A DNA stretch of 64,000 nucleotides from NCBI RefSeq assembly GCF_022374875.2, contig NZ_CP092427.2, forward strand, positions 2,790,001 through 2,854,000, given 5' to 3'. Shown here piece by piece: positions 40,487 through 54,996 of the stretch (positions are counted from its first letter, which is position 1; each line of letters opens with the position of its first letter). The position numbers and the translations under genes were made by a program. Source of the DNA: Mycolicibacterium rufum. Its GTDB lineage: Bacteria > Actinomycetota > Actinomycetes > Mycobacteriales > Mycobacteriaceae. The notes beneath the pieces are model-generated. The model was not told where the DNA came from, ran no database searches, and saw only the letters and a program-made list of their open reading frames with translations.

Positions 40487-41260
40487 TCAGCCGAACCGCG
40501 CGTGCAGCGCGGGCAGGAACGCCGCGAGGTGGTTCATCTCCTGGGCGCAGTGCACCATCAGGTCGCGCGGGTCGGGCAGCTGGCGCGCCGCGACCGGCCG
40601 GATCATGCTGTTGGCCAACAGATTCCCGTGCCGGACGCCGATGTGCGCGCCGCCCATCCAGAACCGCGACCGCATCTCGGCGCCGCCCGCCGTGGGCCGG
40701 ACCTGGTGCACCAGCCAGCCGATGTCCACCGGAAGCTCCGAGGATCCCAGCCGCGCGCACACCGCCACGGCGTCACCCCGCCGATGCGGCGCGAGTCCCA
40801 GCTGCTCGGGCGGCACGAAGCGGATGGCGGCTTTCGTGTACGCCGATCCGAGGTACTCCTCGACCAGCGAGGTGCGTCCGACGTAGTGCCCGTCACCGCC
40901 GCCGTCGGCCCAGCGCGCCGAGACGTGCGCGCGCGGATGCCACAGCTTGTACCGGCGGGCGTCGCTGCCGTGCCAGCCGAACCACCAGTCCCACATCTGC
41001 GGCGTCACCCCGGGCATCTCGGTCAGCACCGCCACCGTGAAGCCGCCGCGGCCCAGCCGTCCGTAGCCGGTCTCGGTGGCGTGGTGGCCGTCGTCGAGAA
41101 GATCTGCAGCACTGGCGAGGTCGAGCAGCGTCTGGTCGGCCTGCGGGCCGTGGTGCAGCGCGTCGAGGACGTGGCCGGGCAGTGGGGCCATGCGCGGGTC
41201 GAAGAAGCCGCCCCACGCGGTGTCGGCGTCGCCGGCGCGGTATCCCAGGTAGGTCGTCAC
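40487..41260 (-). CDS. PhlG-like (2,4-diacetylphloroglucinol hydrolase family) C-C hydrolase
   Basis: 257-aa protein of the DAPG-hydrolase fold. The region MWDWWFGWHGSDARRYKLWH-PRAHVSARW (about 92-122) carries the conserved His residues expected to bind zinc, with further Glu and His in VEEYLG and VRHGNLLANS. PhlG cleaves a C-C bond of acyl-phloroglucinols; related proteins act on other acylated phenols, so the substrate here is open. GTG at 41260 overlaps the flavoenzyme stop (GTGA). Confidence 0.65.
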   Translation of the reverse strand: MTTYLGYRAGDADTAWGGFFDPRMAPLPGHVLDALHHGPQADQTLLDLASAADLLDDGHHATETGYGRLGRGGFTVAVLTEMPGVTPQMWDWWFGWHGSDARRYKLWHPRAHVSARWADGGGDGHYVGRTSLVEEYLGSAYTKAAIRFVPPEQLGLAPHRRGDAVAVCARLGSSELPVDIGWLVHQVRPTAGGAEMRSRFWMGGAHIGVRHGNLLANSMIRPVAARQLPDPRDLMVHCAQEMNHLAAFLPALHARFG

Positions 41261-42597
41261 ACCCGCCCCATCCAGCTGTGGAAGCGGCCCGCCGGATCGT
41301 AGACCGCGCGAACCCGGTCCAGCTCGGTCATCGCGGCGTCGGTGGCGAACGGGGCGGGGCGGCGGCCGAGGTTCTCGTCGGCCAGCTGGATCCCGGTCTG
41401 CAGGTGGTCCATCGCCGCGAGGTTCGACCGCGCCCAGTCGCCGTGGGTGTCGTCGTCGGCGGCGTCCTCCCAGACCCCGTAGAGCGCGAGGTAGATCTCG
41501 TCCTCGAGGCTGTAGGCCATGTCCTGGCGCGGCGGGGACGGCCCCCAGTTCAGCCACAGGAAGTGCGCCGGGTGCGGCGGCATCGTCTCGAGGATCCGGC
41601 GGATTCCCGGCATCAGCTCCTCCGCGCTCGCCGAGGTCCACATGTTGTCGGTGCCGTACCGGTATCCGGTCGGGTAGTTGCTCATCACGCCCCCGTACCA
41701 GGTCTCCAGATCCGACGGGGCGTAGGGCACCGCGATGGTGGCGCGCTCCCGCGCCGGGCAGGTGTCGAGCAGGGCCAGCGCAGCGGTGGCCTCGGCCTCG
41801 GAGTCGGCGAACACCGGCGAGGCCAACACGATCGAGGGAGTGTCGAGGCCGGCGCCGGGCACCGCCCGCGACGCGACGATCTGCAGTTCGACCCGGCGGT
41901 CCACCTCGGCGCTGATCGCGCGCGCCCACGGATAGATCTCCTCGGCGCAGGCCATCGGGTAGACGTAAAGGCTGCTGCCGCACACCGCAGGCCGCGGATA
42001 CAGCCGCAGGTGGAAGGCGACCACGACGGCGAAGAAGCCGGGCCCCGATCCGCGTGCGGCCCAGTACAGATCGGGGTGGTGTTCGGCGTCGACGAACAGG
42101 CGCTCGCCGTCGGCGGTCACCACGTCGAGGCCGAGCACGCTCTCGCACGCCGGGCCGAGCACCCGGCTGTTCCACCCGTAGCCGCCTTGCAGCAGGTAGC
42201 CGCCGATCCGCACGCCCCGGCAATGGCCCGCGGGAAAGAACAATCCCAGCTGATCCAGCCGGGCGGCCAGCACGCTGCCGCCCATCCCGGGGCCGACGAC
42301 GGCGGTGCGGTGGTCGGTGTCGACGGCGCAGTCGTCGAGGCGGCTGACGTCGAGCAGCATGCCGCCGTCGCGTACGTGGTTGCCGGCCCAGCTGTGGCCG
42401 CCCGAACGGACGCCGATCCGCAGGTCGTGGCGCGCGGCGTAGCGCACCGCGGCCACCACCTCGTCGGCGTCGGCGGCCTGCACGACGAGGTCGGGGTAGC
42501 GCTCGGGAGTGCGGGCGTTCCACACGGTCTGGGCGCGGGCCTGCTCGTAGCCGTCGTCGCCGCGGAAGAAATGCCGTCCGTCGGGAAGGTCCGCCAC
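41257..42597 (-). CDS. Berberine-bridge-type FAD oxidoreductase
   Basis: 446-aa PCMH-type flavoenzyme. The FAD domain shows SGGHSWAGNHVRDGG (His for 8-alpha-histidyl FAD) and PAGHCRGVRIGGYLLQGG (Cys positioned for 6-S-cysteinyl FAD), so bicovalent FAD is likely. The BBE domain ends in NLAAMDHLQTG... and YDPAGRFHSW. Family members oxidise phenols, alcohols or sugars. Start set at GTG 42597, with GGAGG 8 nt upstream; the longer frame would overlap the divergent regulator. Operon with the PhlG-like gene suggests degradation of a phenolic compound. Confidence 0.8.
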   Translation of the reverse strand: MADLPDGRHFFRGDDGYEQARAQTVWNARTPERYPDLVVQAADADEVVAAVRYAARHDLRIGVRSGGHSWAGNHVRDGGMLLDVSRLDDCAVDTDHRTAVVGPGMGGSVLAARLDQLGLFFPAGHCRGVRIGGYLLQGGYGWNSRVLGPACESVLGLDVVTADGERLFVDAEHHPDLYWAARGSGPGFFAVVVAFHLRLYPRPAVCGSSLYVYPMACAEEIYPWARAISAEVDRRVELQIVASRAVPGAGLDTPSIVLASPVFADSEAEATAALALLDTCPARERATIAVPYAPSDLETWYGGVMSNYPTGYRYGTDNMWTSASAEELMPGIRRILETMPPHPAHFLWLNWGPSPPRQDMAYSLEDEIYLALYGVWEDAADDDTHGDWARSNLAAMDHLQTGIQLADENLGRRPAPFATDAAMTELDRVRAVYDPAGRFHSWMGRV

Positions 42598-42670
42598 CGC
42601 TCTGCCCTCCGCTCCAGATCCGGATAACGGATCATGGTGGTTCGTATAGCGGATCACTATAGTGCTCGCC
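42598..42670. promoter_or_regulatory. Divergent regulatory gap between flavoenzyme and IclR gene
   Basis: 73 bp containing CGGATCA twice (42628-42634 and 42650-42656, 22 bp apart) and TATAG-N7-CTATA (42644-42660). The repeated half-sites two helical turns apart fit binding by the adjacent IclR regulator. AT-rich CTATAG tracts probably include the -10 elements of both genes. Confidence 0.5.
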
Positions 42671-43384
42671 ATGGCGGCGACGGACGAGAATCATCGATCC
42701 CGCGATGACGGCCTGCAGGCGCTGCGGCGGGCCGCCGCGGCGCTCGACGAGATCGCCACCGCACCGGGTCGGCTGCGTCCGGCCGACATCGCGACGAACC
42801 TCGGGCTGGCCAAGTCGACGGCGCGCCGCCTGCTCGTCGCGCTCGCCGACGTCGGGTTCGCGGCCGTCGACGACGACGGGCGCTACCGCCTCGGCGACCG
42901 CCTGCTGGGTCTGGGCAGCGCCGACGGTGCGCACCTGGCGGCGGCGCTGCGCCCGGTCCTCGACGCGGTCGCGTCGGCGACCGGCGAGACGGTCGATCTG
43001 TCGGTGCTGCGCGGCAGGCAGATGTGGTTCATCGACCAGATCGAGTCCCCGCACCGGCTGCGCGCGGTGTCGGCGATCGGCGGCCGATTTCCGTTGTTCG
43101 ACACCGCGAACGGCAAGGCCGCGCTGGCGCTGCTCGACGACGACGAGGTGCCCGCCGCGCTGACCGACGAGATCCGGGAGGTGCGCCGCACCGGCATCGC
43201 CTACGACCGCGACGAACACACCGCCGGCATCTCCGCCGCGGGCATCGCCCGGCGAGTGCCGGGCGGCCACGTGCTGGCCATCTCCGTGCCCGCGCCCACC
43301 GAGCGGTTCCTGGCCCACGAGGCGGTGATCGTCGAGGCACTGCGGGCCGCGGCGCGCTCTCCGCTGTGGGACACCGCCGGCTGA
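42671..43384 (+). CDS. IclR-family regulator of the flavoenzyme/PhlG-like operon
   Basis: 237-aa IclR-type protein: N-terminal winged helix (about 15-75, LGLAKSTARRLLVALADVGF) and effector domain (about 85-230) with LFDTANGKAALALL and AISAAGIARRVPGG. Divergent from the flavoenzyme, with the shared 73-bp operator gap, it probably controls that operon in response to an aromatic ligand (inference). Start ATG 42671. Ends 4 bp from the convergent TetR gene. Confidence 0.8.
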   Translation: MAATDENHRSRDDGLQALRRAAAALDEIATAPGRLRPADIATNLGLAKSTARRLLVALADVGFAAVDDDGRYRLGDRLLGLGSADGAHLAAALRPVLDAVASATGETVDLSVLRGRQMWFIDQIESPHRLRAVSAIGGRFPLFDTANGKAALALLDDDEVPAALTDEIREVRRTGIAYDRDEHTAGISAAGIARRVPGGHVLAISVPAPTERFLAHEAVIVEALRAAARSPLWDTAG

Positions 43385-43388
43385 GCCG

Positions 43389-43943
43389 TCAGCGGCCGCC
43401 GGAGAGCACGATGTCGACCGCCGCCGCGATCACCGCGTCGTCGGGCAGGGCGCCGAACAACAGCGACGGGCACGTGACCACCCCGGTCAGCATCGACAGC
43501 GCGGCCTCCAGTCGCGCGCCGGAGAACCGCTGCGCCAACAACATCCGCAGCGGCCGCTGACCCTCGAGGTTGACCCGGTCGCGCAGGCGCGCGGCAGCGG
43601 CACTGGTGGCCGATTGCGCCAGGCCGAAGACCACGCGGTCGAGCCGCAGGTCGAGCACCGACCGCCGGAACACCGTGAGCTCACCGATGAGATCGGCGCG
43701 CAGGTCCCCGCTCGGAGGATGATGCGGCCACCCCCCCAGCGCGTCGAGGGCCAGCCGCACCAGGTCCAGCCGTGACGGCCAGTGGGCGTAGAGCGTGGTC
43801 TTCGAGTAGCCGGCGACGTCGGCCAGGTGGGCGTGGGTCAGGTCGTCGAAGCCGCCGGACCGCAGCACCTCCAGCGCCGCGCGGGCGACGTCGGCGCGCG
43901 TGCGGGCGACGCGCGCGTCCTCGCCGTCCCTGTCCATGGCCAC
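43389..43943 (-). CDS. TetR-family regulator next to the MAA operon
   Basis: 184-aa TetR-type repressor: helix-turn-helix (about 28-50, LADVAGYSKTTLYAHWPSRLD) and an all-helical ligand domain with no recognised ligand. Divergent from the mys operon across a 210-bp AT-richer gap containing an inverted repeat, so it is the prime candidate regulator of MAA biosynthesis. Start either GTG 43943 or ATG 43937. Confidence 0.8.
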   Translation of the reverse strand: MAMDRDGEDARVARTRADVARAALEVLRSGGFDDLTHAHLADVAGYSKTTLYAHWPSRLDLVRLALDALGGWPHHPPSGDLRADLIGELTVFRRSVLDLRLDRVVFGLAQSATSAAAARLRDRVNLEGQRPLRMLLAQRFSGARLEAALSMLTGVVTCPSLLFGALPDDAVIAAAVDIVLSGGR

Positions 43944-44014
43944 GCCGGCACCTTTCGGTCGAGGTCGCAGGGCGCGTCACCGTTGCGTCAGAAACTGGAT
44001 TGGTGGACGCCCTT

Positions 44015-44045
44015 TTCATTAATGGTTCTGCTGTGTACTAATGAA
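44015..44045. promoter_or_regulatory. Inverted repeat in TetR-mys intergenic gap
   Basis: TTCATTA (44015-44021) and TAATGAA (44039-44045), perfect 7-bp arms with a 17-bp spacer. The left arm extends into the 8-bp palindrome CATTAATG (44017-44024). Markedly AT-rich against a GC-rich background. Likely TetR operator(s) controlling the regulator and the mys operon; the 44046-44153 stretch is probably leader sequence ending in a GAAGGG-type ribosome binding site. Confidence 0.55.
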
Positions 44046-44153
44046 CTGTAGATCCAATAGCTGTGGATCGAGAGCTTTTGCCCCGATGCGCGTCGAGCAC
44101 CCGGCGCCCGGAGTTCCGCGGTCTTCACCATTCACCGCCAGAAGGGAAAACCC

Positions 44154-44819
44154 ATGCCCGCCATACTTTTCGGATCGATCAGCACCCTCGCCGACACGTC
44201 GGAGCTGCAGCGTCAGGCGTTCAACCAGGCGTTCACCGAGCACGGCCTGGACTGGAACTGGTCGCAGGAGCAGTACCGCTCCATGCTCGGCAGCAACGGC
44301 GGCGCGCAGCGCATCACCGACTTCGCCGCCGACCAGGGCGTGGAGGTGGATGCCGCCGCCGTGCACGCCACCAAGTCGCGGCTGTTCCAGGAACTGCTGA
44401 GCGAGGTCGCACTGCTGCCGCGGCCCGGGGTGCGCGAGACGATCGCGCACGCCAAGGCGGCCGGGCACCGGATCGGGTTCGTCACCACGACGTCGAAGGC
44501 CAACGTCGACGCCCTGCTGACGGCTCTGGAGCCCGAGATCGACGCGTCCACGTTCGACGTCATCGTCTACGACGACCACGTCGACGAACCCAAACCCGCA
44601 CCCGCGGCGTACCTGCTCGCGCTGGACTGGCTCGGCCTCGAGCCCGCCGACGCCGTCGCGATCGAGGACAACATCGGGGGCGTGCGTGCCGCGCTCGCCG
44701 CCGGGCTGCGCTGCATCGCCTTCCCGAACGCCAACACCGCCGGTGCCGACTTTGCCGAGGCCACCGACACCGCCGACCACCTCGACGCCGACCGCGTGGT
44801 GGCGTTGGCCGCTGCTTGA
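44154..44819 (+). CDS. HAD-IA (CbbY-like) protein lacking the catalytic aspartates, first gene of mys operon
   Basis: 221-aa haloacid-dehalogenase-fold protein with cap domain. Motif I, normally DxDGTL, reads GSISTL at residues 7-12: the nucleophile Asp7 is Gly and the acid/base Asp9 is Ile. Motif II (FVTTTSK), motif III lysine (EPKPAPAAY) and motif IV (AIEDN) remain. Homologues with the same FGS-I-TL change exist in bacteria (recollection), so it is probably a conserved non-hydrolytic sugar-phosphate-binding protein rather than a decayed gene. It lies 42 bp before mysA; a role in handling sedoheptulose 7-phosphate is inference. Confidence 0.8.
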   Translation: MPAILFGSISTLADTSELQRQAFNQAFTEHGLDWNWSQEQYRSMLGSNGGAQRITDFAADQGVEVDAAAVHATKSRLFQELLSEVALLPRPGVRETIAHAKAAGHRIGFVTTTSKANVDALLTALEPEIDASTFDVIVYDDHVDEPKPAPAAYLLALDWLGLEPADAVAIEDNIGGVRAALAAGLRCIAFPNANTAGADFAEATDTADHLDADRVVALAAA

Positions 44820-44861
44820 CCAAACGACGCTGCCTGATCGAACGAAACGGAGACTGCCCGC

Positions 44862-46073
44862 ATGAGCGACCTCACCGCACGAGTCACCGCCTCGGAGCGC
44901 AACTTCCACGTCGAAGGCTACGAGCGCATCGCCTACGACCTGACCTACGTCGACGGCGTGTTCGACGTCGACAACACCGCACTCGCCGACGCCTACCGAC
45001 GCTACGGCCGCACGCTGATGGTCGTCGACGAGGTGGTCTACGACCTCTACCGCGACAGCATCGACGCCTACTTCGACCACCACGGGATCGCGCTGACCGT
45101 CGTCGGCGTGCACATCCACGAGACCGCCAAGTCGCTGGAGACCTTCGAGCGCATCGTCACCGAGTTCGACCATTTCGGCCTGGTGCGCACCGAGCCGGTG
45201 CTGGTGGTCGGCGGTGGATTGACCACCGACGTCGCGGGATTCGCGTGCGCGAGCTACCGGCGCAACACGCCCTACATCCGCATCCCCACCACCCTGATCG
45301 GGCTGATCGACGCCAGCGTGTCGATCAAGGTCGCGGTCAACCACGGCCACCACAAGAACCGGCTCGGCGCGTACCACGCCTCCCAGCAGGTGTTCCTGGA
45401 CTTCTCGTTCCTCAAGACGCTGCCCGAGGACCAGATCCGCAACGGGATGGCCGAGCTGATCAAGATCTCCGTGGTCGGCAACGCCGAGATCTTCGATCTG
45501 CTCGAACGTTTCGGGCCCGAGCTGCTCGCCACCCGGTTCGGCCACCACGGCGGCACGCCGCTGCTGCGGGCCACCGCCCACCGGCTCACCTACCAGGCGA
45601 TCGCCACCATGCTCGAGCTGGAGGCACCCAACCTGCACGAGATCGACCTGGACCGGGTCATCGCGTTCGGGCACACCTGGAGCCCGACGCTGGAGCTGAC
45701 GCCGCCCACGCCGTTCTTCCACGGCCACGCGATCAGCATCGACATGGCGCTGTCGGTCACGCTCGCCGAACGCCGCGGCCTGCTGACCGCCGGCGGCCGC
45801 GACCGCGTGCTGGCGACGATGAGCGCGCTGGGGTTGTCGCTGGACTCCGAGTACCTGACCCCCGAGCTGCTCGAGACGGCGACGGCGGCGATCCTGCGCA
45901 CCCGCGACGGCATCCTGCGCGCCGCGGTGCCCGACCCGATCGGCACCTGCCGCTTCCTCAACGACGTCACCGTCGACGAGCTCGTCGACACGCTGACGCT
46001 GCACAAGAAGCTGTGCGCCGAATACGACCGCGGCGGCGACGGCGTCGACGCGTTCACCGCCATCGATGGCTGA
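44862..46073 (+). CDS. mysA: MysA, desmethyl-4-deoxygadusol synthase (sedoheptulose 7-phosphate cyclase)
   Basis: 403-aa member of the dehydroquinate-synthase-like sugar phosphate cyclases; NAD-dependent conversion of sedoheptulose 7-phosphate to desmethyl-4-deoxygadusol, the MAA core. NAD loop GGGLTTD (118-124); zinc ligands E198, H271 and H287 in GMAELIK, FGHTWSP and FFHGHA. The [19 protein letters not shown] start and the C-terminal YDRGGDGVD ending closely resemble cyanobacterial MysA (Ava_3858). 2-epi-5-epi-valiolone synthase is the alternative, made unlikely by the mysB-D partners. Confidence 0.92.
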
Positions 46074-46875
46074 GGTCCTCACCGCGGCGCCGCGGCCGGT
46101 CACCCCGACGACCATCCTCGCCCAGCAGCTCACCGAGCTCTACGACCACGTCCGAGTCCAGCCGGACGCCGACCCGGAGACGCTCGAGAAGCTGCGTCAG
46201 GCACGGGATCTCGCGACCGGCCTGGATCCGTACCTGGAGGCCAACACCACCGGGGAGTCCCCGGCTCTGGCCGAGCTGGCGCGCCGTACGCGGGCGCACC
46301 TGTGGCGCGACGGGCTCGAGCAGGAGATGCTCTCCGGGCACGTCGAAGGGCAGCTGCTCAAGTTCCTGGTGCGGATGACCGGGGCGGCCCGAGTGCTCGA
46401 GATCGGCATGTTCACCGGCTATTCCGCGCTGGCGATGGCCGAGGCGCTACCGGACCACGGTGTGGTCGTCGCGTGCGAGATCGACCCGGGCGCCGCGGAT
46501 CTCGCCCGCGCGGCGTTCGACGCCTCCGGCATCGGGGACCGCATCCGGATCGAACTCGGGCCCGCGCTGGAGACGCTGCGCCGGATGGCCGACGGCGGGG
46601 AGCCCCCGTTCGACATCGTGTTCGTCGACGCCGACAAAGCCGGCTACCTGGGTTACCTGGACCTGCTGCTGGACTCGGCGCTGCTGTCTCCGGGCGCGGT
46701 GATCGCGGTGGACAACACGCTGATGCAGGGCCAGCCGTGGACCGACGGCGCGGTCACCGACAACGGCACCGCGATCGCCACGTTCAACCGCGCGCTGGCC
46801 GACGACCCCCGGACCGAACAGGTGCTGATCCCCGTCCGCGACGGGCTGACCCTGATCCGTCCGCTCCCGCGATGA
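46066..46875 (+). CDS. mysB: MysB, O-methyltransferase forming 4-deoxygadusol
   Basis: 269-aa class I SAM methyltransferase of the MysB type. SAM motif [20 protein letters not shown] (about 106-125), the acidic metal/adenosine motif FIDADK-equivalent FVDADKAGY, and VDNTLMQGQ; the upstream [19 protein letters not shown] segment is characteristic of cyanobacterial MysB (Ava_3857). It methylates desmethyl-4-deoxygadusol. Its start overlaps the mysA stop by 8 nt and its stop overlaps mysC (ATGA). Different from the Rv0187-like methyltransferase at 50056. Confidence 0.93.
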
Positions 46876-48236
46876 CGCTCACCGCGGAGACCACCGAACG
46901 GGCCGCCCCGGAGGGTGCGGTGCGGCGTCGTCCGGACGCCGCCCGCACCCTCGCCACCCTCGCGGCACTGACCGCCACACTGCCGGTCGATCTGGCGATC
47001 ACCGGGGCGGCGCTGCTGCGCCGCGCCCCCCGTCCGGCCGTCCGCCCCGCGGCGCGTCCGCGCACGGTGCTCGTCAGCGGCGGCAAGATGACCAAGGCGC
47101 TGCACCTGGCGCGCGCGTTCCATCTGGCCGGGCACCGCGTGGTGCTCGCCGAGTCGGCCAAGTACCGCTGGACCGGGCACCGCTTCTCGCGGGCGGTGTC
47201 GGCTTTCCACTGCCTGCCCGACGCGTCCGATCCGCGCTACCCGCAGGCCCTGGCCGACATCATCGTCGCCGAGGGGGTCGACGTGTTCGTCCCGGTGTCC
47301 AGTCCCGCGGCCAGCGTGCCCGAGGCGATGGTGGCGGATTTGGTCCGTGATCGGGTGGCCGGACGCTGCGAGGTGCTGCACGGCTCGGCCGCGCTCATCG
47401 CGACACTCGACGACAAGCGCGACTTCAGCCGGCTGGCCACGTCGATCGGGCTGAGCGTGCCCGAGTCGGTGCTGATCACCGATCCCCGCGACGTCGAGCG
47501 CTTCGACTTCGCGCCCGGCCGCTCCTACATCCTCAAGAGACTCTCCTACAACCCGGTCGGCCGCACCGATCTGACGCGTCTGCACCGCGACACCCCCGAG
47601 CACAACGCCGCGTTCGCACACTCCCTGGACATCTCGCCCGCCGACCCGTGGCTGCTGCAGGAGTACGTCGACGGGCAGGAGTACTGCACCCACGCCACGG
47701 TGCGCGACGGTGCCGTCGCCGTGTACGGCTGCTGCGAATCCTCAGCGGTGCAACTGAATTACCGCTTCGTCGACCGGCCGGCGATGCGGGCCTGGGTCAC
47801 CCGCTTCGCCGCGGCGCTGGGTCTGACCGGGCAGGTGTCGTTCGACTTCATCGAGGCCGCCGACGGGCGCGTGTACGCGATCGAGTGCAACCCCCGCACC
47901 CACAGCGCCATCACGATGTTCCACGATCACCCCGAGCTCGCGCACGCCTACCTCGAGGACCGGCCCACCGCCATCACCCCGCTGCCCGGATCCACGCCGA
48001 CCTACTGGATCTACCACGAAGTGTGGCGCCTGGTACGCGGACCCGACCGGCTGCGCCGGCTGCGGGTAATCGCGGGAGGCCGCGACGCGATCTTCGCGGC
48101 GTGGGATCCGCTGCCCTATCTCGCGGTGTACCACCTGCAGATCCCCGCGCTGCTGATCGACAACCTGCGGCGCCGGCGAGGGTGGCGGCGCATCGACTTC
48201 AACATCGGCAAGCTCGTCGAAGCGGGCGGTGATTGA
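46872..48236 (+). CDS. mysC: MysC, ATP-grasp ligase forming mycosporine-glycine
   Basis: 454-aa ATP-grasp enzyme that couples glycine to 4-deoxygadusol. A hydrophobic N-terminal segment (about 30-55) precedes the signature VLVSGGKMTKALHLARAFHLAGHR (in part, about 66-90); ATP-grasp residues in YILKRLSYN and IECNPRTHSAITMFHDHP; and the C-terminal RIDFNIGKLVEAGGD is shared with cyanobacterial MysC (Ava_3856). The N-terminal hydrophobic stretch suggests membrane association, as in other MysC proteins. Confidence 0.94.
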   Translation: MTLTAETTERAAPEGAVRRRPDAARTLATLAALTATLPVDLAITGAALLRRAPRPAVRPAARPRTVLVSGGKMTKALHLARAFHLAGHRVVLAESAKYRWTGHRFSRAVSAFHCLPDASDPRYPQALADIIVAEGVDVFVPVSSPAASVPEAMVADLVRDRVAGRCEVLHGSAALIATLDDKRDFSRLATSIGLSVPESVLITDPRDVERFDFAPGRSYILKRLSYNPVGRTDLTRLHRDTPEHNAAFAHSLDISPADPWLLQEYVDGQEYCTHATVRDGAVAVYGCCESSAVQLNYRFVDRPAMRAWVTRFAAALGLTGQVSFDFIEAADGRVYAIECNPRTHSAITMFHDHPELAHAYLEDRPTAITPLPGSTPTYWIYHEVWRLVRGPDRLRRLRVIAGGRDAIFAAWDPLPYLAVYHLQIPALLIDNLRRRRGWRRIDFNIGKLVEAGGD

Positions 48237-49263
48237 GGTGGGGCGCACCATCATCCAGCTCGTCGGATCGCCGGTGGACGAGTTCCACGCCGAGCTGTCA
48301 CGGCTGTATGCGGGCGCCAGCGCGGCGGCGCTGGCCGAGCGCCACAGCGTCGCCTTCGCCTACGTCGCCCCCGGCGGCACCTGGCAGTTCCCCGACGCCC
48401 TCGACGCGCACAGCCTGGCCGCGGCCGAACCGCTGTCGGCGGCGGCGGGCATCGCGGCGCTGGCCGGGATGCGTGCGGATGTCGTTCTGCCGCAGATGTT
48501 CTGCCACCCGGGGATGACGTCGTACCGGGCGCTGCTGGACCTGCTGGGGCTGCGCTACCTCGGCAACACCCCCGAGGTGATGGCCAACACCGAGGACAAG
48601 GCGGTGGCGCGCGCACTGGTAGCGGCCCACGGCGTCGCGGTGCCGGCGGGCCGGGTCGTGACGCACCCCGTAACCCACCCCGACGAGGTGGACCTGCCGC
48701 TGCCGGTGGTCGTCAAGCCCGCCCGGTCGGACAACTCGATGGGGGTGTCGCTGGTCACCGACCGGGCGGAGTTGGGGGAGGCGGTGGGCCGGGCGAGGTC
48801 GCATTCGGCCGACGTACTCGTCGAGACGTTCGTGCCACTCGGGCGCGAGGTGCGCTGCGGCGTGCTGGAGGTCGACGGCCGGCTGGTGTGCCTGCCGCTG
48901 GAGGAGTACGCGCTCGACGCCCCGATCCGGTTGCCGGCCGACAAGCTGGGCCGCACCGGGGGCGGGGACCTGCGCCTGGTGGCCGGCGACGCGGGCCGCG
49001 CGTGGATCGTGCAGCGCGACGACCCGGCAGTCGCCGCGGTGTGGCGGGCGGCGCAGGCGTGCTTCCGGGCGCTGGGCTGCCGGCACTACGGGCTCTTCGA
49101 CTTCCGTATCGATCCCGACGGCGTGCCGTGGTTCCTGGAGGCCGGGCCCTACTGCTCGTTCGCGCCGTCCAGCGTGATCGTCAAAATGGCTGCCGCGCAA
49201 GGTCTTCCACTGACCGATCTGTTCGACACCCTGTGCCGCGAGGCACGCATCGAGGCGGCATGA
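48229..49263 (+). CDS. mysD: MysD, D-Ala-D-Ala-ligase-like enzyme adding the second amino acid
   Basis: 344-aa ATP-grasp ligase of the MysD type, which attaches a second amino acid (Ser in shinorine, Thr in porphyra-334, or Gly) to mycosporine-glycine. Key segments: QLVGSPVDEFHAELSRLY, LPQMFCHPGMTSYRALLDLL, VVKPARSDNSMGVSLV (ATP loop), LGREVRCGVLEVDG and CRHYGLFDFRID with FLEAGPYCSFAPSSV. All match MysD in order. The amino acid cannot be read from sequence. GTG 48229 overlaps mysC; GTG 48238 is the alternative. Overlaps the dioxygenase by 4 nt. Confidence 0.92.
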   Translation: MIEVGRTIIQLVGSPVDEFHAELSRLYAGASAAALAERHSVAFAYVAPGGTWQFPDALDAHSLAAAEPLSAAAGIAALAGMRADVVLPQMFCHPGMTSYRALLDLLGLRYLGNTPEVMANTEDKAVARALVAAHGVAVPAGRVVTHPVTHPDEVDLPLPVVVKPARSDNSMGVSLVTDRAELGEAVGRARSHSADVLVETFVPLGREVRCGVLEVDGRLVCLPLEEYALDAPIRLPADKLGRTGGGDLRLVAGDAGRAWIVQRDDPAVAAVWRAAQACFRALGCRHYGLFDFRIDPDGVPWFLEAGPYCSFAPSSVIVKMAAAQGLPLTDLFDTLCREARIEAA

Positions 49264-50045
49264 CGATCGAGGTGACCACCCGCCATCCGATCGGCGCCCG
49301 GATCCGGGGTGTGCGGGTCGGCCCGCTGGACCCGACGGTCGTCGCGCACCTGCGGGCGCTGCTCGCGGTGCACGGGGTGCTCGTGCTGCCGGATCAGCGC
49401 GTCGACGACGCCGACTTCGCGCGGTTCCTGCAGAGCTTCGGCGAGCTGGTGTTCACCACCGGGGAGACCCCGGTGCCGCACGCCCCGCTGCTCAACGTGA
49501 TCACCAACGTGGGGCGCACGCGGGCGCCGCGGTCGTCGTTCCACGTCGACACCAGTTATCTGCGCTGCCCGCCGGCCTACACCGCACTGCGCGCGGTGAC
49601 GGTGCCCGAGCGTGGCGGGCAGACGTTGTTCACCAACCAGTACCACGCCTACGACACGCTGCCGCGGGAGATGCAGGCCCGCATCCGGAACCGGGTCGTC
49701 ACCCACGTGGTCACCGGTCTGGACCTCGACGAGGGCGCGGAGACCTCAGCGCGGCACCCGCTGGTGCTGCGGCACCCGCTGTCCGGCCGGACGGCGCTGT
49801 ACCTGTCGACCCGGCAGCGGTGCCGCGAGGTCAGCGGGATGGCGCCGGAGGCCGCGGAGCAGTTGATCGATGAGCTACTCGAGCATTCGACCCGGCAGGA
49901 CAACGTGTTTCGGCATCAGTGGCAGCCCGACGACGTGGTGATCTGGGACAACCGGTGCGTCATGCACAGGGCCGACCACGACGGCGTGGTCGGCGACCGG
50001 GTGATGCACCGCGGCACGGTCGTGGACCGCACGGCCTGGGGTTGA
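49260..50045 (+). CDS. TauD/TfdA-family Fe(II)/2-oxoglutarate dioxygenase, candidate MAA tailoring enzyme
   Basis: 261-aa dioxygenase with the complete facial triad H95, D97 (FHVDTS) and H236 (VMHRAD), plus R251 for 2-oxoglutarate. Not of the PhyH family of cyanobacterial MysH, which makes palythines by oxidative trimming of the glycine arm, though it could catalyse an analogous reaction. The ATGA overlap with mysD makes it part of the operon. Its product is unknown; the nearest analogue activity is N-dealkylation or hydroxylation of the imine amino-acid side chain. Confidence 0.85.
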   Translation: MTIEVTTRHPIGARIRGVRVGPLDPTVVAHLRALLAVHGVLVLPDQRVDDADFARFLQSFGELVFTTGETPVPHAPLLNVITNVGRTRAPRSSFHVDTSYLRCPPAYTALRAVTVPERGGQTLFTNQYHAYDTLPREMQARIRNRVVTHVVTGLDLDEGAETSARHPLVLRHPLSGRTALYLSTRQRCREVSGMAPEAAEQLIDELLEHSTRQDNVFRHQWQPDDVVIWDNRCVMHRADHDGVVGDRVMHRGTVVDRTAWG

Positions 50046-50055
50046 CCGCCTGGGG

Positions 50056-50715
50056 TTAGCGCAGGACCGCGACCGCGAAGCCGTCCCAGCCCTTGGTGCC
50101 GACGGTCTGGATCGCGGCGGTGTCCAGACGCGGGTGCTCGCCCATCATCGCGAGCATGTCGCGCACCGCCTGAGCCTGCCGGTCGTCCGGCCGGGGCGCC
50201 AGCACGCGACCGAAGCGGGCGATGTTGTCGACGATGATCACGGTTCCCGGCGCGCCGAGGGTGATGGCCCATTCGACATAGGCGACGTTGTTCTCCTTGT
50301 CCGCGTCGATGAACACGAGGTCGAACGGCGCGCGGTCGGCCAGCGTGGGCAGGGTGTCGAGGGCGGCGCCGACGATGATCTCGACCCGGTCGGCCACCCC
50401 CGCGCGGTCCAGGTTGGCGCGGGCCACCTCGGCGTGCGCGGGCTCGAACTCCAGGCTGACCACCGCGCCGTCCGGTCCGACGGCGCGGGCCAGTGCGATG
50501 GTGCTGTAGCCGGCGAGCGTGCCGATCTCGAGGACCCGGCGCGCCTTGGCCACCCGCACCCACAGCGACAGCAGCTTGGCGTGCTGCGCCGACACCTCGA
50601 TGGCCGGCATCCCGGCCGCGGACGCTGCGTCGCGCGCAGCGCGCAGCGCGTCGTCCTCGGTGTGCAGCAGGTCGGTGAACATCGCGTCGAGGGACACCCA
50701 GTCGGGCTCGGTCAC
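50056..50715 (-). CDS. Class I SAM O-methyltransferase (Rv0187-like)
   Basis: 219-aa catechol-O-methyltransferase-type enzyme: SAM motif VLEIGTLAGYSTIALARAVG (about 60-79), metal motif FIDADKENN and IVDNIARFG. Its length and features match Rv0187, reported to be a metal-dependent O-methyltransferase. Convergent with the mys operon and separated by 10 bp; it marks the return to the conserved backbone and need not act on MAAs. GTG start at 50715. Confidence 0.83.
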   Translation of the reverse strand: MTEPDWVSLDAMFTDLLHTEDDALRAARDAASAAGMPAIEVSAQHAKLLSLWVRVAKARRVLEIGTLAGYSTIALARAVGPDGAVVSLEFEPAHAEVARANLDRAGVADRVEIIVGAALDTLPTLADRAPFDLVFIDADKENNVAYVEWAITLGAPGTVIIVDNIARFGRVLAPRPDDRQAQAVRDMLAMMGEHPRLDTAAIQTVGTKGWDGFAVAVLR

Positions 50716-52070: not shown

Positions 52071-53938
<1,868 letters not shown>

Positions 53939-53952
53939 CTATTTTTCGGGGG

Positions 53953-53981
53953 CTGACCCTGTCGGTGGTGCTGCGTAAGCT
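53953..53981 (+). promoter_or_regulatory. Putative sigG promoter, leaderless
   Basis: -35-like CTGACC (53953-53958), 17-bp spacer, -10 TAAGCT (53976-53981); the GTG start at 53989 follows 7 nt later with no ribosome binding site. Consistent with leaderless sigG mRNA. Confidence 0.4.
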
Positions 53982-53988
53982 GCCAGAC

Positions 53989-54996
53989 GTGACCGTGTTG
54001 GCTGTCGAGGGCAGCAGCGCCGAGGATGCCTTTCTCGCCGATGCCCAGCGGTATCGGCGGGAATTGCTCGCGCACTGCTACCGGATGACCGGGTCCCTGC
54101 ACGATGCGGAGGACCTGGTGCAGGAGACGTTCCTGCGGGCGTGGAAGTCGTATCACGGGTTCGAGGGCAAGTCCTCGATCCGCACCTGGCTGTACCGGAT
54201 CGCGACGAACACCTGCCTGACCGCACTGGAGGGCCGGAACCGGCGGCCGCTGCCCAGCGGGCTCGGCCAGCCGTCGTCGGACCCCCTCGCCGAACTGCAC
54301 GAACGGCATGAGATCACGTGGCTGGAACCGCTGCCCGACGCGCCGCGGGAGGACCCGTCGGACCCGTCGGTGATCGCCGAGTCCCGCGAGTCGGTGCGGT
54401 TGGCGTTCATCGCGGCGCTACAGCATCTGCCGCCGCGGCAGCGCGCGGTGCTGGTGCTGCGCGAGGTGCTGCAGTGGAAGGCCGCCGAGGTGGGCGCGGC
54501 GATCGGCGCGTCGACCGCGGCGGTCAACAGCCTGCTGCAGCGGGCCCGCGCCCAGCTCGACGAGGTGGCGCCCAGCCGCGACGACGAGGCGGCCGACCTC
54601 GACTCGCCGGAGGCGGCCGAGATGCTGGACCGCTTCATCGCCGCGTTCGAGACCTACGACATTGACCGGCTGGTCGAGCTGTTCACCGCCGATGCGATCT
54701 GGGAGATGCCGCCCTTCGACGGGTGGTACGACGGCCCGGCCGACATCGTGTCGCTGTCGAAGAACCACTGCCCCGCCGAGGGGCCCGACGACATGCTCTA
54801 CCTGCGCACCACCGCCAACGGCCAGCCGGCCGCGGCGATGTACATGCGCAACCCGAAGACCGGGGTGCACGAGGCGTTCCAACTGCAGGTGCTCGACATC
54901 CGTGACACGGGCATCGCACACGTCGTGGCGTTCATGGAGCAGTCGCTGTTCGAGAAGTTCGGCCTGCCCCTGACGCTGAACCCGTCGGCGCGATAG
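53989..54996 (+). CDS. sigG: SigG ECF sigma factor with C-terminal SnoaL-like domain
   Basis: 335-aa ECF sigma factor, orthologue of Rv0182c, induced by DNA damage and in macrophages in M. tuberculosis. Region 2 (about 18-75, LVQETFLRAWKSYHGF and IRTWLYRIATN), region 4 (about 135-190, LPPRQRAVLVLREVL and IGASTAAVNSLLQRARAQL), then a SnoaL-like C-terminal extension (about 210-325) that likely modulates activity in place of an anti-sigma factor. GTG 53989 is preferred over the longer frame because of the leaderless promoter. Its stop lies inside an ArsR-type operator. Confidence 0.9.
   Translation: MTVLAVEGSSAEDAFLADAQRYRRELLAHCYRMTGSLHDAEDLVQETFLRAWKSYHGFEGKSSIRTWLYRIATNTCLTALEGRNRRPLPSGLGQPSSDPLAELHERHEITWLEPLPDAPREDPSDPSVIAESRESVRLAFIAALQHLPPRQRAVLVLREVLQWKAAEVGAAIGASTAAVNSLLQRARAQLDEVAPSRDDEAADLDSPEAAEMLDRFIAAFETYDIDRLVELFTADAIWEMPPFDGWYDGPADIVSLSKNHCPAEGPDDMLYLRTTANGQPAAAMYMRNPKTGVHEAFQLQVLDIRDTGIAHVVAFMEQSLFEKFGLPLTLNPSAR

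Follow-up and report, generated by a model that had tools for sequence, protein, structure and literature searches.

A putative mycosporine-like amino acid operon of Mycolicibacterium rufum carries a CbbY-related HAD protein that lacks the catalytic aspartate motif

Results

Gene content of the locus

The window, i.e. the whole 64 kb stretch of M. rufum DNA analysed here (64,000 nucleotides), holds seven adjacent open reading frames, all present and open. A gene of a TetR-family regulator (43389..43943, minus strand; TetR_N, 34.9 bits) is divergent from six genes on the plus strand, HAD-mysA-mysB-mysC-mysD-TauD, which span 44154-50045. The first of these encodes a HAD-fold protein (44154..44819; HAD_2, 87.9 bits), a relative of CbbY with FGSIST as motif I in place of the catalytic Asp motif, hereafter referred to as GSI-type. 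It is followed by mysA (44862..46073), assigned to desmethyl-4-deoxygadusol synthase, a cyclase of the DDGS type, from the DHQ_synthase profile, structure matches and a tree; by mysB (46066..46875), an O-methyltransferase gene (Methyltransf_3, 172.8 bits) syntenic with mysB of other clusters; by mysC (46872..48236), encoding an ATP-grasp ligase; by mysD (48229..49263), encoding a D-Ala-D-Ala-ligase-like ATP-grasp protein (Dala_Dala_lig_C, 75.1 bits); and by the gene of a TauD/TfdA-family Fe(II)/2-oxoglutarate dioxygenase (49260..50045; TauD, 183.8 bits), whose HxD and C-terminal His/Arg motifs align with those of solved relatives. The neighbouring reading frames mysA/mysB, mysB/mysC, mysC/mysD and mysD/TauD overlap by a few bases. 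Each name is backed by Pfam/NCBIfam profiles with the exception of MysC, which had no Pfam match and scored 383.5 bits with its best NCBIfam model, PRK06849, against a model cutoff of 406; a sequence search of the PDB with MysC found no relative. The layout proposed in the initial annotation, with MysA to MysD in canonical order, a HAD-like gene in front, a dioxygenase behind and a divergent TetR gene, is confirmed by the reading frames and profiles, and since many genomes repeat the gene set in the same order, it is not a product of chance. MysD is of the D-Ala-D-Ala-ligase type, as would be expected for a disubstituted product.

Directly before tetR lie genes of a FAD_binding_4 oxidoreductase (41257-42672, minus strand) and an IclR regulator (42662-43384, plus strand), a pair common to L074, L075, L082, L135, L136 and L138. 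At the other end, a second Methyltransf_3 gene (50056-50715, minus strand) is convergent with TauD; among the loci searched, a gene of this type adjoins the cluster only in close relatives, e.g. L074, L082 and L135-L139. A sigma-70-type factor with a SnoaL-like domain is encoded at 53935-54996 (plus strand).

Distribution in mycobacteria

MysC was matched strongly (E ≤ 3e-72) in 41 of 396 same-genus genomes, that of the window included, so that roughly a tenth of the genomes sampled has the MysC of such a cluster; 14 further genomes gave weak matches only (27-32% identity). In a phylum-wide sample MysC was present in 7/396 genomes, again counting the window's own, and a MysC search of plasmids returned one Nostoc record. 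Larger regions were fetched for 39 of the 41 same-genus loci, the remaining two being the window and the fragmentary G303. HAD, mysA, mysC, mysD and TauD were each found in 39/39 of these mycobacterial loci (in L151 the HAD match is split in two pieces) and mysB in 31/39. The idea that the cluster is rare in mycobacteria, for which a synteny survey had been suggested, is rejected on the basis of the 41/396 count. The six-gene architecture, initially regarded as unusual because of its two extra genes, proved to be the usual one, as HAD and TauD occur in all 39 fetched loci and have both been reported as conserved in PMC11888242.

The divergent tetR gene is present in 37 of the 39 fetched loci. 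A putative operator-like site was located at 44042..44059 (plus strand) in the tetR/HAD intergenic region. Its motif was trained on all extractable tetR/HAD intergenic regions, 39 with that of the window, and is common to all 39 of these same regions; 44042-44059 is the only match above 9 bits within the 64 kb window.

The cyclase

The phylogeny of the cyclase had been named as a test that could overturn the assignment of the operon: a 2-epi-5-epi-valiolone synthase (EEVS) at its start would lead to an aminocyclitol that is not a mycosporine-like amino acid (MAA). MysA is indeed a sugar phosphate cyclase, and an EEVS, ValA, ranks second among its solved matches. The scores, however, are 540 bits to 5tpr, listed as a 3-dehydroquinate synthase, which we take to be the Anabaena DDGS, and 268 bits to 4p53, which we take to be ValA. 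The latter identification is also given in a passage of PMC4426668. In a tree of 39 cyclases, which carries a long-branch warning and was built, like all trees in this work, by a quick method without bootstrap, the window MysA shares a clade with 5tpr and the cyclases of other mys clusters, ValA and the 3-dehydroquinate synthases lying outside it. At 217 alignment columns where DDGS and EEVS references differ, MysA has the DDGS residue in 104 and the EEVS residue in 34, the rest being neither, and the gene adjoins mysB, mysC and mysD. Bit scores, tree and column counts all favour DDGS; an EEVS-type cyclase is rejected, and an aminocyclitol product is highly improbable. The window's own genome has one further cyclase match, 32% identical to MysA, which is presumably AroB.

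A separate group of mys-cluster cyclases (L178, L179, L220, L229, L234, L235, L237, L238, L240 and L241) shows only 35-39% identity to the window MysA and makes up a clade of its own, distinct from both DDGS and ValA; L178 and L179 also carry a GSI-type HAD.

The HAD protein

Both by sequence and by predicted fold, the nearest solved relative of the HAD protein is CbbY of R. sphaeroides (4uar, 4uat; 42-43% identity in the fold alignment), a xylulose-1,5-bisphosphate phosphatase according to the portion of PMC10212915 that deals with it. The model of the window protein (mean pLDDT 95.9) shows the HAD fold with a cap. Hence, the designation as HAD-like holds for the fold, with the HAD_2 and CbbY matches, and fails for the catalytic Asp motif: where CbbY has F-D-V-D-G-T, residues 6-11 of the window protein (codons 44169..44186, plus strand) read F-G-S-I-S-T, so that Asp8 and Asp10 of CbbY correspond to Gly7 and Ile9, and the DxD of motif I with its nucleophilic Asp is absent. 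In addition, Glu17 and His20 of CbbY are replaced by Ser16 and Gln19.

The relatives examined share this replacement. Gly7-Ser8 occurs in 120/120 homologs (the best 120 of 1473 listed), and in 80/80 named loci (the best 80 of 133 relatives) Gly7 and Ser8 are followed by Ile or Leu at position 9; Gly-Ser-Ile/Leu likewise stands for DxD in 39/39 fetched mycobacterial loci. The patterns used to scan genome contigs for HAD comprised positions 10-19 and a C-terminal stretch, positions 7-9 lying outside them. All four Gly codons are used for Gly7 among the best 80 of 133 relatives, and together with the 80/80 count this rules out chance or sequence error behind the missing Asp. Motifs II-IV are kept in the same best 80 of 133, with Thr111, Thr113, Lys147, Glu171 and Asp172 in 80/80 and position 112 being Thr in 77/80 and Ser in 3/80. 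The dN/dS ratio of HAD against five relatives is 0.185-0.284, within the range of mysB and mysD. Of the 28 HAD matches whose motif was read in the phylum-wide sample, 7 were GSI-type (52-99% identical), 19 had DxD (at most 42% identical) and 2 were not aligned; the 7 genomes with GSI-type HAD are the same 7 that have MysC. In the HAD tree, 50 MAA-linked sequences lie on one side of a branch with support 80; together with L205 they are set off by a branch with support 99. The tree labels L205 as DxD, though it is in fact GSI-type, and also L049 and L051, whose motif I was not aligned. Judging from these alignments, the CbbY-related HAD of MAA clusters is very probably no HAD phosphatase.

The remodelled pocket might instead house an enzyme with different chemistry, acting through Ser8 or another residue. 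Such an enzyme would agree with purifying selection on HAD and with the invariance of Gly7, Ser8, Asp14, Ser16, Glu17, Gln19, Lys147, Glu171 and Asp172 (80/80, best 80 of 133 relatives). However, the same invariance fits a binding protein too, and as positions 14-19 lie within the search pattern, theirs is partly due to the selection of loci. Moreover, the solved matches inspected were DxD phosphatases and mutants thereof, none with a GSI motif. We therefore consider new chemistry distinctly unlikely, and prefer a non-hydrolytic accessory protein.

Linkage of HAD and TauD

When loci were found by HAD alone, 77 of 80 (the best 80 of 133 relatives) contained a mys gene; for the other three, L089, L118 and L134, MysC was found at another genomic site. 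In 66 of these 80 loci (again the best 80 of 133), HAD is accompanied by a TauD with 48% identity or more. In L068, L095, L102, L106, L117 and L118, where such a TauD is missing, the locus is cut by a contig end, and L120, L122 and L129 have only a 30-36% TauD match in the usual place. The loci of L069, L086, L087, L113 and L131, as well as the mycobacterial locus L176, have HAD and a complete cluster with no MAA-type TauD nearby; a genome-wide TauD search gave no match in L086 and L113 and only 31-32% matches in L069, L087 and L131. These six complete actinobacterial clusters argue against HAD being a strict partner of TauD, and such a role was rejected.

L107 (Microlunatus flavus) has the order HAD-TauD-mysC-mysD and neither mysA nor mysB in the locus; the sole cyclase match of this genome is 31% identical.

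Among 292 sampled cyanobacterial genomes, including G782, which was picked because of its HAD, MysC is present in 30. MAA-type HAD is found nowhere in these 30 genomes (0/30), and 0/32 of their MysC regions contain an MAA-type HAD or TauD. Motif I could be read in 52 of 61 cyanobacterial HAD matches, 50 being DxD and 2 GSI. Four cyanobacterial records among the best 80 of 133 relatives (L064, L089, L127 and L134) do have a GSI-type HAD, and in 4/4 it adjoins TauD; the mys genes of L127 run divergently. The HADs of the four records form a starred group nested within the actinobacterial HADs, and their TauDs form a starred group whose placement the tree does not settle. In the cyclase tree, L064 and L127 fall together with G831, a cyanobacterium that has no GSI-type HAD. 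Because HAD adjoins TauD in 4/4 of these records, while neither gene lies near MysC in 30/30 sampled MysC-positive cyanobacteria, a joint transfer of the pair into MAA-making cyanobacteria is probable. PMC11888242 describes HAD and TauD as absent from its Cyanobacteriota, whereas we find both in the four records.

These data also bear on the step that HAD serves. It could act at the first one, binding a ketose phosphate, such as sedoheptulose 7-phosphate, which it would feed to MysA or protect: the ligand of CbbY, its nearest relative, is a ketose bisphosphate, the phosphate/Mg motifs are kept, and HAD stands directly before mysA in most loci and also occurs in clusters without TauD. On the other hand, MAA-type HAD is missing from 30/30 MysC-positive cyanobacteria, the cyanobacterial HAD adjoins TauD, the mys genes of L127 are divergent, and R. 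fascians mysABC yielded mycosporine-glycine without HAD (PMC11284840). A first-step role thus appears possible but rather doubtful, and a non-hydrolytic accessory of a later step is preferred.

GSI-type HADs occur outside mys clusters as well: in a cyanobacterium (L205:1396-2097, minus strand), the genome of which does have MysC, and on a Roseobacter litoralis plasmid (L294:8989-9660), beside trkH. One further homolog, among the best 120 of 1473 listed, comes from a Pseudomonadota MAG. The neighbours in L205 are presumably rsgA and glgC. A strict limitation of the GSI motif to mys clusters is hence rejected, and these cases argue against a role in MAA formation only.

Loss of mysB

Eight of the 39 fetched mycobacterial loci (L140, L155, L161, L162, L168, L170, L171 and L172) are without mysB. 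In them, the aligned parts of mysA and mysC are 64-106 bases apart, and the remaining genes align without stops and nearly full length. A genome-wide search found a mysB ortholog in 0/8 of these genomes, with matches of 33-40% only (none in one genome), and both control genomes gave orthologs (69-70%). On the MysC tree, which also holds L088, identical to L168, the absence of mysB needs three changes, two of them forced by starred branches, pointing to about three losses. The products of the mysB-less clusters would be O-desmethyl MAAs, provided that no other methyltransferase takes over.

Discussion

The UV-absorbing MAAs are sought as natural sunscreens; the initial annotation proposed for this operon a disubstituted, probably further modified MAA that may also act as an antioxidant. 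In the experiment described in PMC11284840, Streptomyces albidoflavus with synthetic mysABC based on R. fascians D188 proteins produced mycosporine-glycine, as seen from absorbance near 310 nm and LC-MS. R. fascians records L060 and L125 (not D188 itself) are 79% identical to the window in MysA, 58% in MysB and 61-64% in MysC. Because these homologous genes made mycosporine-glycine, an MAA product of the window operon is very likely, and because they did so without HAD, HAD is not needed for this intermediate. For later steps the evidence is second-hand: PMC11888242 quotes unpublished results for S. coelicolor, where expression of the R. fascians operon, HAD and TauD included, led to shinorine, palythine and palythine-serine. 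A palythine-type end product in M. rufum is suggested by the presence of TauD.

From these results, the following route may be proposed. MysA would convert sedoheptulose 7-phosphate to desmethyl-4-deoxygadusol, which MysB would methylate; MysC would then add glycine, giving mycosporine-glycine, and MysD a second amino acid, giving a shinorine-like imine. The last step is probably an oxidation of the N-linked glycine by TauD, upon which the glycine would leave and palythine-type MAAs result. HAD would be a non-hydrolytic accessory, placed most likely in the late branch with TauD, and its retained phosphate/Mg site may bind a ligand that is phosphorylated or anionic. The order of reactions in M. 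rufum, the TauD reaction and the role of HAD are thus all part of the proposal. Taken together, we regard the locus as a TetR-controlled standard actinobacterial MAA operon with probable palythine-type products and a CbbY-derived HAD as a non-hydrolytic accessory, with a probability of about 80%.

A further-reaching view, which we hold tentatively and consider improbable on balance, is that GSI-type HADs are a new, nucleophile-less HAD class, selected as a partner of TauD or a late step within a mobile HAD-TauD module, and that the mysB-less mycobacteria make undescribed O-desmethyl MAAs. If true, the two-gene HAD-TauD module would turn shinorine makers into palythine makers.

Among known systems, the cyanobacterial mysABCD clusters share the order mysA-mysB-mysC-mysD with the window, and in those with a DDGS-type cyclase MysA is 59-64% identical to that of the window; they differ in that MAA-type HAD and TauD are both missing from the vicinity of MysC in 30/30 sampled genomes. 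According to the relevant passages of PMC10510106, cyanobacterial MysH belongs to another family than the window TauD, while MysI, as described there, is likewise a TauD/TfdA-family dioxygenase proposed for palythine-type products. We found no paper on the clusters in literature on MAAs and Mycolicibacterium, and in literature searches with partial subscription coverage a link between HAD and MAA clusters appeared only in PMC11888242. That GATOR-GC study reports that actinobacterial MAA clusters conserve HAD and TauD, and leaves the role of the HAD gene unvalidated; its passages make no mention of the missing catalytic residue and use 'nucleophile' and 'phosphatase' 0 times. As its search required the O-methyltransferase, mysB-less clusters would be missed. 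The clusters of Pseudonocardia alni and Rhodococcus fascians D188, as presented there, have the gene set of the window: cyclase, O-methyltransferase, ATP-grasp, D-Ala-D-Ala ligase, HAD and TauD. It is well supported that the window operon is of a published kind, and what makes it interesting is the conserved, disarmed HAD, the association of this protein with TauD and the fact that mysB was lost more than once; what the present work adds to the known systems is the HAD without the catalytic DxD, the HAD-TauD pairing in cyanobacteria and the mysB-less mycobacterial clusters.
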